Source: Prevotella sp.
Lineage (GTDB): Bacteria > Bacteroidota > Bacteroidia > Bacteroidales > Bacteroidaceae
Assembly (NCBI GenBank): GCA_017619275.1
Contig: JAFZSR010000017.1
Coordinates: 1-33,461, forward strand
Length of the DNA: 33,461 nucleotides
Reading direction: 5' to 3'
The notes under the pieces are model-generated. The model worked only from the letters and a program-made list of their open reading frames with translations. It ran no database searches and was not told the origin of the DNA. A program made the translations under genes and the position numbers. Position 1 is the stretch's first letter. Each line of letters starts with the position of its first letter. Of this stretch, positions 2,882 to 30,982 are shown one piece after another.

Positions 2882-2933
2882 ATTCTTGTTCGTTTAGTTG
2901 TTGATGTTATTCAGATATGCACAAAAAGAAAAC

Positions 2934-3090
2934 GTGGACAATTCACTTCGTCTACGTTATCCAGGTATCGCCAAACACCCAACAGCTTTAACGAGTAAAA
3001 GCCCACGCCAAGAAGGCGTGAACCATCTACTTTTACTCTTGCTGTTATCATAAATTTGGCGATTTTGGATAACAAGAATCAAAGCGGACG
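2934..3090 (-). ncRNA. Structured leader element, copy A
   Basis: This ~157-bp element lies 50 nt upstream of the lipoprotein start at 2881 and can fold into nested helices: 2956-2963 with 3066-3073 (GTTATCCA/TGGATAAC), 2967-2975 with 3055-3063 (ATCGCCAAA/TTTGGCGAT), 2981-2986 with 3041-3046 (AACAGC/GCTGTT), 2993-3001 with 3030-3038 (GAGTAAAAG/CTTTTACTC) and an apical hairpin 3004-3009 with 3015-3020 (CACGCC/GGCGTG). Copy B at 30741-30905 has the same architecture with different stem bases. The promoter at 3207-3237 should transcribe it as part of the 5' leader. Candidate roles are a cis-regulatory RNA or a small mobile structured element; the sequence does not decide between them. Confidence 0.6.
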
Positions 3091-3206
3091 CTTCAACGTA
3101 TATGTCTTTTGTTTTTACTTAGCCCATAGGCATTTCAGGGGTTTAAAGGTGATACAATCATGTTACTTTGAAATATCCATGCCTGGGGCATGAGAACTTT
3201 CGACTG

Positions 3207-3237
3207 CAAAAATACGAAAAGATGGGCAGAATACAAA
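3207..3237 (-). promoter_or_regulatory. Promoter of the truncated BspA-like gene
   Basis: On the minus strand TTTG lies at 3237-3234, followed by a 19-nt spacer and TATTTTTG at 3214-3207. Transcription would begin near 3200 and pass through structured element A before reaching the ATG at 2881, a leader of about 320 nt. That is long for a simple lipoprotein gene and supports a regulated leader. Confidence 0.6.
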
Positions 3238-3333
3238 AAAGTATTACATTTTTTTTGCAGAAACGGAGTGTTTTTGCCCAATTTGCGAAAAATTTAGGCA
3301 TGCACTCGTTTCTTCGTTGTTCGGACTGATTGC

Positions 3334-4026
3334 CATTTATGACAGATGACAGATGACAGTTTTTATTTAAGGGGGGGGGTAAAGGCTGGGGGGTGGAGAA
3401 GGGAGGAAGGGAAGAGAGCGTAAATTATTATAAATGAATAGTTTAGTATATATATATGAAAAAACACATATATATATTTATGAATAAATACATATATATA
3501 TTTATGAAAATACTCATATATATTATGAAAATACACATAAATATGATTATAAACACATATATATTTATGAATAATTAGTGGTCATTTGCGGATATTTACG
3601 TAGCGTCGCAGACAGATAACATAAATTGCCCATTGAAGTATTTCTATGCCTGCGGCACTACACAAATAACCATGAATGTATCGAAAGTATTTATTTCTAT
3701 GCCTGCGGCACTACACAAATAACCATAAATGTATCGAAAATATTTATTTCTATGCCTGCGGCGCTACACAAATAACCGTAAATGGCCATGAATGTATCGA
3801 AAATATTTATTTCTATGCCTGCGGCGCTACACAAATAACCGTAAATGGTCGTGAATGTATCGAAAATATATATATTTATGAAAAGACATATATATATTTA
3901 AGAATAAACACATATATATATATTTATAAATATTTACAAGTAAGTGTTTATGATGCCCTGCTCATCGTCTAAAACAGGCTCACCCTGCCTTAAAACAAAA
4001 CTGTCATCTGTCATCTGTCATAAATG
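3334..4026. repeat. Non-coding island bounded by 39-bp inverted repeats
   Basis: The left end (3334-3372) and right end (3988-4026) form an inverted repeat of 39 bp with two mismatches. It contains tandem GACAGAT units (TGACAGATGACAGATGACAG) followed by TTTAAGG at the inner side. Between the ends lie a G9 run, two AT-rich blocks of about 23-bp units (3451-3575 and 3865-3935) and the 53-bp tandem repeats at 3641-3872. No credible gene is present, and no transposase. A third, solitary copy of the terminal sequence lies at 6499-6532, so the ends are a dispersed repeat. The structure resembles a non-autonomous MITE-like element, but no clear target-site duplication was seen. Confidence 0.6.
3641..3872. 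repeat. Four tandem copies of a 53-bp repeat
   Basis: Units start at 3641, 3694, 3747 and 3810 (periods 53, 53 and 63 bp) with the core TTTCTATGCCTGCGGC followed by CTACACAAATAACC and GTATCGAAA. The third unit carries an extra ~10 bp (a near copy of its GTAAATGG end). The units are near-identical and have no unique spacers. They create a repetitive reading frame (MYRKYLFLC and so on) that is an artefact of the repeat. Confidence 0.8.
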
Positions 4027-4147
4027 TCATGTGATGCGATGCCCTCCCGACAGATGCTACGACGGAGCAACGAAAAGGGGAGCGTTGCGCGGGCAAACGA
4101 CGCTGTTTGCGGAGGTAAACGATGCGGTGTCTGGGGGCATGCAGGGC

Positions 4148-6498: not shown

Positions 6499-6532
6499 TG
6501 ACAGATGACAGATGACAGTTTTAGTTTAAGGG
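6499..6532. repeat. Solitary copy of the GACAGAT repeat
   Basis: This 34-bp sequence (TGACAGATGACAGATGACAG, then TTTT, two variable bases and TTTAAGG) is the same as the inverted ends of the island at 3334-4026, in the orientation of its left end. It shows that the end sequence also exists by itself. Confidence 0.75.
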
Positions 6533-9352: not shown

Positions 9353-10887
9353 TTTATGATGGATTTGATGGTTCCTTTTTCCAGGCGTGTCTCAATCTCG
9401 TCGCCCTTGCTGAGTTGCTTGGGGTCGCGCACGGCGTGGCCGTCTTTTAGGGTGATGCTATAGCCTCGATGCAGCAGCAGTGCCGGGTCGAGCGCCTTGG
9501 TCTTCTCTTCCAACAGTGCCAACTGGTTCTGCCTGACGGTGAGTGTGTGGCGGAGCAGCATGGGAATCTTTTGTTCGCAAGCCGAAAGCTTGGTGCCCTC
9601 GGTCCCCACTCGCCGTTGCATACTGCCGAGCAGATGGCTATAGAGCGAATGAAGACGGGCCTCTTGCCGTGCCTTCACCACCGAGAAAAGGCGTGGGATA
9701 ATCTCTTGCAGGGTGGTGAGTTGAGCGTGGAGTGCAGTGAGGCGGTGCTGCGCGAAACGGGTGATGCGGGCCTGAGAGTCGTCGAGGTTGGTGAGCACCT
9801 GCTTCAGATGGTCTATGAGGAAGGCGGCGGCCGCCGTTGGGGTTTTCACGCGAGTATGGCTCACCATGTCGAGAATGCTCTCGTCGCGGTCGTGACCAAT
9901 ACCGGTAATGATGGGCAGGGGGAATTGCGCCACATTCTCGGCCAAGGCCAACGTGTCGAAGCCCGACAGGTCGGCGGTAGCACCTCCACCACGCAGGATG
10001 ACTACACAGTCGAAGGGAGGACCCACCCCCAACCCCATTCCCGAGCAAGGCTCGCCTACCCGTAGCCTTTCCCGAACGGGAGGGGCGTTTGTATAGTCTT
10101 GCTGCGGAGAAATACCCACCCCCAACCCCATTCCCGAGCAAGGTTCGCCTACCCGTAGCCTTTCCCGTGCGGGAGGGGCGTTTGTATAGTCTTGCAACGG
10201 AGTAGTCTGACCAAGCCCCCCTCCCGTTCGGGAGGGGCTGGGGGTGGGTATCTGATTGGGTGTCTGGTATATGCTATCCAGCGCGGCAATGATGCTCTGC
10301 TCCACCTGTTCGCCCTGCATGATGGCAGGGAAGAGGGTTACGCTGAAGCGAAGGCCAAAGGCATTCTCCGTCAACTGTTTCACAAAGTCGCCATAGCCGG
10401 CTGCGGTGGCACTGCTAATGACGGCGATGCGCTGGCAGAACACGGGCAGCGTGAGTTCTTTCTGCAAGTCGAACACGCCCTCCTGCTTCAGCTGTCGGAT
10501 GATTTCCTGCCGTCGGCGTGCCATATCGCCCAGCGTGAAGGTGGGGTCGATGTCGGTCACAATCCACGAGAAGCCGAAAGCCTCGTGGAACTGCGCATAC
10601 ACCTTCAGCAGCACCTTCAGTCCAGCGTGGAGTGTTTGGCCGGTTGTACGTTCAAAATAAGGGCGAATAATCATCCACTTCGAAGCCCAACACTTGGCCG
10701 AGGCGCGGGCTATCGGCGTGGCGCTTCGTTCATCCTTCTGGATGAGTTCCATATAGCAGTGCCCACGACTCTCGCGACATTCCGACAGTTCTGCCTCCAC
10801 CCAATACTCACGGGTCAGCGTCTGCTCAATGGTCTGTCGCACCAAAGCGTTCAGCTCGAAGAGGGAGAGGGCGGGAGTGGCGTTCAT
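9349..10887 (-). CDS. xseA: Exodeoxyribonuclease VII large subunit with a repeat-derived insertion
   Basis: The 512-aa protein has the XseA layout: N-terminal OB fold (residues ~5-105, LFELNALVRQTIEQTLTREY), the catalytic core (LPVFCQRIAVISSATAAGYG; CVVILRGGGATADLSGFD; PIITGIGHDRDESILDMVSH; RVKTPTAAAAFL), a long helical region and a C-terminal segment (LLHRGYSITLKDGHAVRD). About 80 residues (209-291) inside the core, just before the strand FDCVVILRGGG, are encoded by two 93-bp tandem palindromic units plus a third hairpin. Without them the length would be ~430 aa, normal for the phylum. The insertion keeps the frame open, so the enzyme may still work, with an added Pro/Gly/Arg-rich loop; a splicing or folding effect cannot be read from DNA. 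It is coupled to xseB and follows the subtilase gene by 12 bases. Confidence 0.92.
   Translation of the reverse strand: MNATPALSLFELNALVRQTIEQTLTREYWVEAELSECRESRGHCYMELIQKDERSATPIARASAKCWASKWMIIRPYFERTTGQTLHAGLKVLLKVYAQFHEAFGFSWIVTDIDPTFTLGDMARRRQEIIRQLKQEGVFDLQKELTLPVFCQRIAVISSATAAGYGDFVKQLTENAFGLRFSVTLFPAIMQGEQVEQSIIAALDSIYQTPNQIPTPSPSRTGGGLGQTTPLQDYTNAPPARERLRVGEPCSGMGLGVGISPQQDYTNAPPVRERLRVGEPCSGMGLGVGPPFDCVVILRGGGATADLSGFDTLALAENVAQFPLPIITGIGHDRDESILDMVSHTRVKTPTAAAAFLIDHLKQVLTNLDDSQARITRFAQHRLTALHAQLTTLQEIIPRLFSVVKARQEARLHSLYSHLLGSMQRRVGTEGTKLSACEQKIPMLLRHTLTVRQNQLALLEEKTKALDPALLLHRGYSITLKDGHAVRDPKQLSKGDEIETRLEKGTIKSIIK
10015..10263. repeat. Palindromic repeat array inside xseA
   Basis: Two nearly identical 82-bp units start at 10021 and 10114 (period 93 bp, 31 codons; three base differences noted). 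A third hairpin at 10213-10250 (CCCCTCCCGttCGGGAGGGG) follows. The outer ends are inverted copies: ACCCACCCCCA at 10021-10031 and TGGGGGTGGGT at 10239-10249. On the gene strand each unit encodes QDYTNAPPxRERLRVGEPCS plus GMGLGVG. Confidence 0.8.
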
Positions 10888-26563: not shown

Positions 26564-26667
26564 ACACTATTATAGACAGCATGGCAGGACAAAAAGCTAA
26601 CCCTCTTTGCCATTTTTAGCGAAAAAAAACAATTCATTGCAGTTTCCCACTTACTTTTCCTCTAAAG

Positions 26668-26709
26668 AAGTAGCTTGATTTGAAAACTTTTCGTATCTTT
26701 GCGCCATAA
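26668..26709 (+). promoter_or_regulatory. Promoter block of toxin-antitoxin module 1 (shared sequence)
   Basis: A 42-bp block starting AAGTAGCTTGATTTGAAAAC and ending GCGCCATAA, with the -7 element TATCTTTG at 26694-26701, is repeated at 29795-29836 with one mismatch. No TTTG is at the standard distance; the conserved CTTGATTTG may serve as the upstream element. Confidence 0.65.
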
Positions 26710-29787: not shown

Positions 29788-29794
29788 CCTATAA

Positions 29795-29836
29795 AAGTAG
29801 CTTGATTTGAAAACTTTTTGTATCTTTGCGCCATAA
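29795..29836 (+). promoter_or_regulatory. Promoter block of toxin-antitoxin module 2 (shared sequence)
   Basis: 41 of 42 bases are identical to 26668-26709, including TATCTTTG at 29821-29828. The start codon at 29856 is 20 bases behind the block. Downstream genes are unrelated, so the block is a shared promoter or the trace of a shared insertion. Confidence 0.65.
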
Positions 29837-29855
29837 AACCAAATACGAGACACTT

Positions 29856-30164
29856 ATGAGCACGGAAACGATGCAAAAAACGATTGCCGACTACTTCAAG
29901 ACCCAGCCAGTCCTGAAGGCATGGCTCTTCGGCTCCTTTGCCCGAGGTGAGGAGACGCCAAAGAGCGACGTGGACATTCTCTTTGTACCCGATTATTCCG
30001 GCAAGCCCTTTACACTTTTCACACATGGCGGAATGCTCATGGACTTGCAAGAACTGCTTGGACGAGAGGTGGATCTGGTTGTAGAGGGTACGCTGCGACC
30101 ATACGCCGCAGAAAGTGTTAACCGTGACAAGATACTGATATATGAGAGAAAGAGCGAGGGATAA
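29856..30164 (+). CDS. mntA: MntA-type nucleotidyltransferase antitoxin
   Basis: The start is taken at the ATG at 29856 (MSTETMQKTIADYFKTQ), giving 102 aa. It has the minimal nucleotidyltransferase signature GSFARGEETPKSDVDILFV, that is G-S-x10-D-x-D, with a third acidic residue in EVDLVVEGTL. In MntA/HepT modules this protein inactivates the HEPN toxin by adding AMP to a tyrosine. It overlaps the toxin gene by 23 bases. The TTG at 29826 would lie within the promoter and is not used. Confidence 0.85.
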   Translation: MSTETMQKTIADYFKTQPVLKAWLFGSFARGEETPKSDVDILFVPDYSGKPFTLFTHGGMLMDLQELLGREVDLVVEGTLRPYAAESVNRDKILIYERKSEG

Positions 30165-30648
30165 AGGCCGATTGATGGACATCATCGAGTATTCAGGTAA
30201 CGTATCGGCACTCATCGAGGGCTACACTTTCGATGCCCTCGTAAGCGATAAGCGTACCTATTATTCTGTGGTGAAGAATGTGGAAGTGGTGGGCGAAGCT
30301 GCCTACATGCTTACTAAAGCCTTCAAGAAGGCCCATCCCGCTACACCTTGGAAGGTGGTGCAGGGCATGCGCCACGTCCTGGTTCATGACTACGCCACCA
30401 TTGACGACAGGGAACTCTATAACACAGCCGTCAATGACATCCCCGTATTACAAAAGCAAGTGGAGAATTATATTGCCGAGACCGACTGGGACGAATGGCA
30501 GGCCGTCCCTGATGACTTCGAAGATAATGACGATGCCGTGCACAAAACGATTGTTGAAACAGCCCGCAATATGAAGGCCGATGGCATGGCCGTGGAGCTA
30601 ATTGCAAAGTACACCGGCCTGACGACGGATGAAATCAAAACACTATAA
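30142..30648 (+). CDS. hepT: HepT-type HEPN toxin with an extra C-terminal HTH-like tail
   Basis: The 168-aa protein starts with MRERARDKGRLMDIIEY, a typical HepT/DUF86 start, and contains RHVLVHDY, the R-x4-H-x-Y motif of active HEPN RNases whose Tyr is AMP-modified by MntA. Family members are ~110-145 aa. Here the last ~35 residues (IVETARNMKADGMAVELIAK, then YTGLTTDEIKTL) resemble the C-terminal end of Rpn/transposase-like PD-(D/E)XK proteins of this phylum. The fusion is unusual. It is translated with mntA from overlapping frames and shares the promoter block with module 1. Confidence 0.85.
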   Translation: MRERARDKGRLMDIIEYSGNVSALIEGYTFDALVSDKRTYYSVVKNVEVVGEAAYMLTKAFKKAHPATPWKVVQGMRHVLVHDYATIDDRELYNTAVNDIPVLQKQVENYIAETDWDEWQAVPDDFEDNDDAVHKTIVETARNMKADGMAVELIAKYTGLTTDEIKTL

Positions 30649-30740
30649 ATTATTTGGTTTGGAAATATTCATGCACCAAATTTAACAAAAAACAATTACG
30701 CCAATGGACAGATAAAAGATTATAGGACATAAGACAGAAC

Positions 30741-30905
30741 GTCCACTTTTGATTCTTGTTGTTCGATAATTGGGGAATTAGACAACAATCACCAAGAACT
30801 GAAGTAGATAGTTCACGCCGCTCGGCGTGGGCATTTACTCGTTTAAGGTGATAGGCTATCCCCAATGCCTCGAACAACGTAAGCGAAGTAGAATGCTCAC
30901 GTTTT
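30741..30905 (+). ncRNA. Structured leader element, copy B
   Basis: In reverse orientation this matches copy A (2934-3090), and relative to the following gene both have the same orientation. Helices: 30758-30766 with 30870-30878 (GTTGTTCGA/TCGAACAAC), 30769-30776 with 30859-30866 (ATTGGGGA/TCCCCAAT), 30788-30793 with 30847-30852 (ATCACC/GGTGAT) and hairpin 30814-30819 with 30824-30829 (CACGCC/GGCGTG). In copy A these pairs have different bases but still pair. The fourth stem of copy A (GAGTAAAAG) is only partly kept. It ends 77 nt before the lipoprotein ATG at 30983; no promoter was recognised in front of it. Confidence 0.6.
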
Positions 30906-30982
30906 TTATTCCCTAATATCGACAATATTAACTGAAAACAAAACATAGAGGTTGTGCCCGACACGGATTCAGGGTAAAGATA

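Follow-up and report, generated by a model that had tools for sequence, protein, structure and literature searches.

A structured RNA with a start-stop reading frame upstream of export-signal-like genes in Bacteroidales: a candidate two-state leader

The DNA considered here, a stretch of 33,461 nucleotides (nt) from a Prevotella sp. (GenBank assembly GCA_017619275.1, contig JAFZSR010000017.1; "the window"), carries two copies, A and B, 28 kb apart, of a single family of structured RNAs about 167 nt long. Comparison of these copies with their relatives in other genomes shows selection at the level of the RNA, a leader position in front of genes with export-like products, and a very short open reading frame (mini-ORF) whose start codon is followed in frame by a stop. 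These properties are consistent with a cis-acting two-state 5' leader that attenuates mRNAs for exported proteins in Bacteroidales, a reading to which we give a probability of about one half. Under such a scheme helices would switch, transcription would terminate at a U-tract, and the mini-ORF would be both translated and relevant to the outcome.

Two copies of one RNA family and the pairing they keep

The original prediction placed an element at 2934-3090, with a second copy 28 kb away, and held that its pairing was preserved by compensatory changes. Both copies are present, the pairing is kept in this way, and both fold with z-scores of about −7. Copy A reaches −60.7 kcal/mol on the minus strand against a shuffled mean of −32.7 (z −6.99), and copy B −58.4 kcal/mol on the plus strand against −31.6 (z −7.45), with 0 of 200 dinucleotide-preserving shuffles as stable as either sense strand. 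The copies show up as an inverted match because copy B sits on the opposite strand, where the model scores it at 141.3 bits versus 18.3 on the minus strand. For copy A the antisense strand folds strongly as well (−47.2 kcal/mol, z −6.75), so gene orientation, promoter and U-tract, and not the z-score, were used to assign the sense strand. The stem changes named beforehand are exact: from A to B, P1 changes from GTTATCC/GGATAAC to GTTGTTC/GAACAAC, P2 from TCGCCAA/TTGGCGA to TTGGGGA/TCCCCAA, and P3 from CAG/CTG to CAC/GTG. Two further in-step differences can be added (GTAGAC/GTCCAC to GTAAGC/GCTCAC, and GGT/ACC to GGC/GCC). The predicted extent required adjustment: the element is real, its limits are refined to 2929-3094 on the minus strand, and the conserved features extend upstream to the mini-ORF and promoter and downstream to the U-tract.

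Searched with copy A in BLASTN, the Prevotella genome itself returns copy B at E 9.8e-10 and three other hits at E 0.9 to 5.9, and 20 of 60 related genomes give matches at E ≤ 0.01, the weakest of them short. RNAalifold applied to 25 copies found changes on both sides in 16 of the 25 predicted pairs, and a covariance model (R1) was built from these 25 copies with only P1, P2 and P5 as its pairs. The model finds the family in at least 86 of the 119 genomes sampled from the genus (E ≤ 1e-3), at least 118 of 295 of the order (E ≤ 1e-4) and at least 28 of 296 of the phylum (E ≤ 1e-4), the last comprising 25 genomes from other families of the class, two more distant ones, and the Prevotella genome itself. 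That genome is counted in all three tallies, and strict filters and limited scoring make the figures lower bounds. A DNA-pattern search with one genome per species yielded at least 120 stretches, 119 with names read as Bacteroidales and one named "uncultured bacterium"; among the 119 is Caccomonas, which we take to belong to this order. The carriers listed among these stretches include Prevotella, Paraprevotella clara, Hoylesella buccalis, Muribaculaceae and Rikenellaceae. In the model searches of the genus and the order, the matches listed per genome are in single digits, again as lower bounds. The weaker model matches in the Prevotella genome are C8 (42.5 bits, without a mini-ORF by the family rule), C85 (30.7 and 23.1 bits) and C7 (18.6 bits). 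The comparison with Rfam, HEARO included, which the original prediction had proposed, gave no match: Rfam 15 returned 0 matches at gathering scores in the window, in eight loci and in 20 distant loci, and 0 among 10 loci at E ≤ 0.5. A weak listing for 501 bases around copy A (E ≤ 10) contained seven matches, all far under their gathering scores, which were set aside.

The sets behind the following figures were assembled from loci picked by score or by DNA pattern, so that they lean to good matches. Rows L003-L005, L023, L024 and the partial L033 were omitted from counts; L017, L020 and L022 are the same places as L190, L198 and L211; and 80 pattern-search loci (L070-L149) were used of the at least 120 (L070-L189). 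One later set kept 81 of 82 rows, a 32-bit hit at L092 being dropped, and another kept 70 of 82, dropping six repeat places, five opposite-strand hits and a 30.7-bit hit at L236. The 175 entries that resulted correspond to 169 distinct elements. Permutation tests used the 145 elements of at least 150 nt together with 28 of 29 distant rows (the 29th being an opposite-strand hit), 173 in total; C8 is included in the sets of 169 and 145, and C85 and C7 are excluded. The alignment used for covariation, A7, holds 101 copies from 100 loci.

All column pairs of A7 were scored with average-product correction, and those among the 110 best that pair at least 0.08 above expectation were listed. The first ten belong without exception to P1, P3 or P2, P3 being absent from the model. 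Next comes a contact between the loop of a small 5' hairpin (UCC or UUA) and the GGA or UGA just before P5, followed by P5, a GGY/RCC pair around the 3' strand of P2, a helix H4, and a 3' hairpin, T. When the rod, the contact, GGY/RCC and T are taken together as one structure, pairing holds in 96.3% of 3698 cells across 100 distinct rows, in an alignment that was fitted to P1, P2 and P5 only. Both sides have changed in 568 cells; shuffles give a mean of 178, and slid partners 58-83. The predicted selection on an RNA (or single-stranded DNA) structure is thereby upheld, and the covariation persisted in the larger set. Permuting partners among the 145 copies gave z-values of −39 for P1, −18 for P2, −34 for P3 and −16 for P5, and P1 reaches −15.7 in the 28 distant copies. 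Comparative evidence thus supports, for the RNA, a rod (P1, P2, P3 and P5) with a 5' tertiary contact and a 3' hairpin.

Several other candidate pairings were rejected or lost weight. Column pairs 2-75, 4-90 and 1-88 look like lineage effects. An outer helix between AGACA-like upstream and TGTCT-like downstream bases gave z −0.1, and pairing of the upstream region with the tail or with a P1 strand gave 0.7 and 0.3. A full H1 helix, joining the 5' strand of P1 to the stretch before P3, reached only −2.8 (−3.7 over 173 copies, −1.0 over the distant 28). A downstream helix AGTCC/GGACT gave z −9.3, but GGRCT follows 46 of 91 AGTCC-type ends versus 11 of 78 others, so that this helix is at most a feature of a subtype.

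The distant relatives (L239-L266), from other families of the class and, at a guess, flavobacteria, keep the rod and the GCGTGGGC/CCACGC complementarity. They mostly do without hairpin T and the mini-ORF, and often have no downstream gene nearby.

The start-stop frame and the genes behind it

Upstream sequence is long enough in 167 copies, and 129 of these carry a GCCTATG-like ATG 28-55 nt ahead of where the model begins. An in-frame stop follows within two codons in 124 of these 129 (at once in 25), versus 17 and 27 of 129 in the other two frames of the same sequences; similarly, a smaller, earlier set had the start-stop frame in 72 of 74 copies versus 9 and 15. The stops are TAA (87), TAG (25) and TGA (16), and the encoded peptides vary (M, MG, MT, MK, MI, MR, MVT, MDR and more), indicating that the frame is kept and not the peptide. 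Even among the 38 copies that lack a GCCTATG-like start, an ATG with such a stop occurs in 16, versus 5 and 3 in the other frames. The 28 distant copies gave no signal (5 versus 1 and 5). Outside these distant copies, the frame comparison therefore points to a leader minigene, a start codon with an in-frame stop a few codons on, that is under selection. At L019 and L102 an extra short hairpin-like sequence stands between mini-ORF and element, as if the spacer tolerated small insertions.

The proposal that copy A lies in the leader of a lipoprotein gene generalizes to the family. Of the 169 distinct copies, 12 have no next gene in the stretch; in the other 157 that gene is on the same strand 145 times and on the opposite strand 12 times. 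Of the same-strand genes starting within 260 nt, 109 of 131 have an export-signal-like N-terminus, compared with 151 of the 620 further genes that these stretches contain (Fisher p 8e-37), as judged by a crude, home-made gene caller and export-signal rule. These 131 genes fall into 65 BLAST clusters, the largest with 39 members; among the 25 of 64 Pfam families listed for them, BspA-type LRR_5 occurs in 28 and Dockerin_1 in seven. The 3' end of the element carries at least eight T within 12 nt in 151 of 157 copies.

The promoter foreseen upstream of copy A is present as a Bacteroidetes-type TTTG-N19-TATTTTTG site; the published consensus for the group is TAnnTTTG (PMC9723704; this and the other papers cited here are drawn on in excerpt). 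In the family, an TANNTTTG box occurs no more than 110 nt upstream of the mini-ORF ATG in 67 of 129 copies, where mononucleotide shuffles give a mean of 6.3 and a maximum of 13, and in 32 of those 67 it lies 30-37 nt from the ATG. The gap between leader and gene (median 58 nt among the 115 copies with gaps of 15-140 nt) shows no enrichment of this box, at 8 of 115 versus a shuffled mean of 6.3. On this sequence evidence the element appears to have the arrangement of an attenuator-type leader: it is 5' of the gene, on the same strand, with no promoter of the gene's own in between.

The genes upstream of the element are mixed (137 scanned): among the 25 of 96 Pfam families listed, NTP_transf_2 was found ten times, HepT-like eight, PIN four, HEPN three, ParE three and YoeB twice. 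Upstream of copy B (29826-30648) lie an ORF with a nucleotidyltransferase domain and a HepT-like ORF, and similar toxin-antitoxin-like genes recur upstream of the element elsewhere. The 270-residue product of gene B, downstream of copy B, has no Pfam match at E ≤ 0.001.

Table 1. Features of the two copies and their downstream genes in the window.
Feature	Position	Strand	Basis
Copy A of the structured RNA (whole model, 169.1 bits)	2929..3094	minus	model score, folding
Copy A, P1 5' strand GTTATCC (partner GGATAAC 2956-2962)	3067..3073	minus	sequence, covariation
Copy A, P5 apical hairpin GTTCACGCC/GGCGTGGGC	3001..3023	minus	sequence, covariation
Copy A, 3' end: hairpin T (GTAGAC 2950-2955 with GTCCAC 2934-2939) and U-tract 2923-2932	2923..2955	minus	sequence
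Copy A, start-stop mini-ORF ATG GGC TAA	3119..3127	minus	sequence, family pattern
Copy A, promoter-like site TTTG-N19-TATTTTTG	3207..3237	minus	sequence
Gene A: lipoprotein-like start (MKKLLFYFPLVLPFFLLSAC), BspA-type LRR_5, 237 amino acids	2168..2881	minus	
Copy B of the structured RNA (141.3 bits)	30736..30905	plus	model score, folding
Copy B, start-stop mini-ORF ATG GAC AGA TAA	30704..30715	plus	sequence
Copy B, 3' end: hairpin T GTAAGC/GCTCAC and U-tract 30902-30907	30879..30907	plus	sequence
Gene B: lipoprotein-like start (MKTLLKTCAIFLALLVLSAC), 270 amino acids	30983..31795	plus	

The window holds other repeats. A sequence of 33-47 nt with TGACAGATGACAGATGACAG occurs three times (3331-3377, 3983-4029 and 6499-6531); two of these form an inverted pair around AT-rich DNA, 89-94% complementary, and this repeat next to copy A may be a small mobile element. 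Upstream of copy A, 3611-3910 consists of tandem units of 53-63 nt (GCCTGCGGC... and CATAAATG...). A promoter-like stretch of 48 nt with TATCTTTGCGCC occurs twice, at 26662-26709 and 29789-29836 (94% identity), and a C-rich stretch of 89 nt has two copies 93 nt apart within 10021-10202, also at 94% identity.

A candidate switch and its rivals

Competing helices appear to be kept in the family too, with weaker support than the rod. In H1a, TTCTTG just 5' of P1 pairs with CAAGAG behind P3 (TCTCG/CGAGA in the distant copies), which, from the topology, would be incompatible with the full rod. Its permutation z is −10.9 over 173 copies (−3.6 over 145, −8.8 over the distant 28), and folding predictions for 145 transcripts cut after the 5' arm of P5 contain H1a in 141. 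In H4, GAGTA/TGCTC is swapped for GAACT/AGTTC, and 93.8% of cells are paired. Lastly, in 99.3% of cells of A7, CGTGGGC in the apical arm matches as a complement the GTCCACG that directly precedes the U-tract (in copy A, 3001-3007 and 2933-2939), with a permutation z of −7.9 over 173 copies and −4.9 over the distant 28. H4 and CGTGGGC:GTCCACG together have 29 cells changed on both sides versus 6.9 in shuffles. As candidates for mutually exclusive structures, one of them with a terminator before the gene, H1a, H4 and CGTGGGC:GTCCACG are kept but show little variation in Bacteroidales.

The attenuator proposed here would work as follows. Transcription would start at the TANNTTTG promoter, and a ribosome may initiate on the mini-ORF of zero to two codons. 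The emerging RNA would first form H1a and, once its 3' half is made, would convert to the rod, braced by the 5' loop contact and with hairpin T holding the 3' end. Alternatively, the apical CGTGGGC would be left free to pair with GTCCACG before the U-tract, giving a terminator-like helix. The rod would then correspond to read-through and the alternative to attenuation, and a bias between the two would come from the ribosome on the mini-ORF, through its state, or from a protein or ligand.

Several observations weigh against this mechanism. The rod is very stable (median −60.6 kcal/mol), so that a switch would need kinetic or factor control. Hairpin T is weak (median −4.3 kcal/mol) and is not kept in the 28 distant copies (z −0.5). 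Within A7, H1a hardly varies: it is 93.0% paired versus 92.1% in shuffles, and its four cells changed on both sides are matched by slid partners (four, up to seven). H4 is in none of the 145 cut-transcript folds. The changes in CGTGGGC:GTCCACG within A7 are one-sided, none affecting both sides, and the count of both-sided pairs for this helix and H4 is no better than in shuffles, 484 of 500 of which reach it. Furthermore, shuffles and permutations ignore relatedness, and the z-values are not probabilities. The figure of about one half was lowered slightly because of these weak controls for the competing helices.

The weakness of hairpin T as a terminator, together with the mini-ORF frame as the sharpest signal in the data, lends itself to a different reading, namely that the leader acts on mRNA stability or translation and not on termination, the mini-ORF ribosome and the stable rod protecting the transcript or setting its translation. 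We regard this as possible, if somewhat doubtful, as the U-tract kept right behind GTCCACG in 151 of 157 copies goes beyond what a stability element needs. A stand-alone small RNA that acts in trans and ends at its own U-tract, with the next gene a mere neighbor, would suit the distant relatives, in which, judged by eye over 28 rows, there is often no same-strand gene nearby but a promoter box close to the element. For the main set, however, the strand bias and the excess of export-like genes call for action in cis, and the gap between leader and gene shows no promoter enrichment, making this explanation unlikely. That the export signal is the property shared across the 65 BLAST clusters would accord with an RNA tag bringing mRNAs for exported proteins to the membrane or secretion machinery; yet the single-digit matches listed per genome, though lower bounds, suggest that most exported proteins probably lack the leader, and such a tag is improbable. 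Least probable of all is a mobile DNA element or recombination site (a miniature inverted-repeat transposable element (MITE), an integron-type site or a HEARO/IscB-linked element) needing its hairpins as DNA: the family is multicopy, of seven within-genome comparisons six show similarity limited to 198-243 nt (78-87%) and one shows none, L225 holds two copies alike over 348 nt at 93%, and the upstream genes are often toxin-antitoxin-like, but the conserved promoter, reading frame, U-tract and gene orientation point to RNA, Rfam gave no match, and the one near-identical pair, L219/L220, is alike over 2.77 kb to the contig end, beyond the leader alone.

Related candidates were rejected on direct searches. 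An integron integrase model exceeded its cut-off in one of 25 genomes, the Prevotella genome scoring below it, and for carriage on plasmids or phages BLASTN found no match to copy A, the sole query, at E 1e-5. No transposon end was recognized, with no insertion-sequence database searched.

A broader form of the attenuator proposal is put forward only tentatively: a widespread Bacteroidales switch in which the start-stop minigene serves as a ribosome sensor deciding the transcription of exported surface-protein genes, a stand-alone form surviving in other families of the class. If so, part of the surface proteome would be gated by the state of translation initiation or termination, and scattered genes for exported proteins, those for BspA-type repeat proteins above all, would share a testable RNA regulator in Prevotella-like gut and rumen bacteria. 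In addition, the family would offer a naturally occurring set of minimal start-stop frames under selection across a bacterial order, and would make testable what a ribosome with almost nothing to translate signals to the cell. From the covariance model and the aligned copies, others can annotate the family immediately.

Relation to known systems

Leaders, attenuators and minigenes are known kinds of element; what was not found described is a single conserved family that combines them in front of export-like genes. Related literature covers a Flavobacterium psychrophilum transcriptome with unnamed conserved 5' elements and small RNAs (PMC9723704), candidate RNAs (PMC8040213), a Porphyromonas gingivalis MITE (PMC4596501) and periodontal non-coding RNAs (PMC7160235). 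In the excerpts of these papers, and of those on further candidate RNAs, minigenes and FopS below, no description of the present RNA was found, and it may be unnamed among supplementary candidates. Flavo-1, Bacteroidales-1 and 6S-Flavo (Rfam; PMC2864571) are likewise structured RNAs of Bacteroidetes, and no Rfam model matched the stretches searched. The FopS small RNAs of Bacteroides (PMC11697453) resemble the present family as multicopy Bacteroidales RNAs with promoter and terminator; as described there, however, they consist of a single-stranded stretch with a 5' seed and one terminator hairpin, are mostly intergenic and act in trans, whereas the present RNA is a multi-helix rod with a 5' hairpin. 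Membership in FopS was rejected on this difference in architecture.

The two-codon leader minigenes of LEE1 in enterohaemorrhagic Escherichia coli and of axe-txe (PMC8708949) similarly have a start codon, one codon and a stop upstream of a regulated gene; in that account they are single loci, whereas the present ones belong to a conserved RNA family, at some 30-40 nt from the folded RNA and about 200 nt from the gene, both of which they precede. Leaders that attenuate transcription, and riboswitch candidates whose terminators overlap the motif, such as crcB and pfl (PMC2864571), share with the present family a structured 5' leader on many unrelated genes and a U-tract before the gene, and their competing helices may have a counterpart in it. 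Unlike those leaders, the present family has a start-stop mini-ORF built in, and the genes behind it are joined by export signals and not by metabolism.
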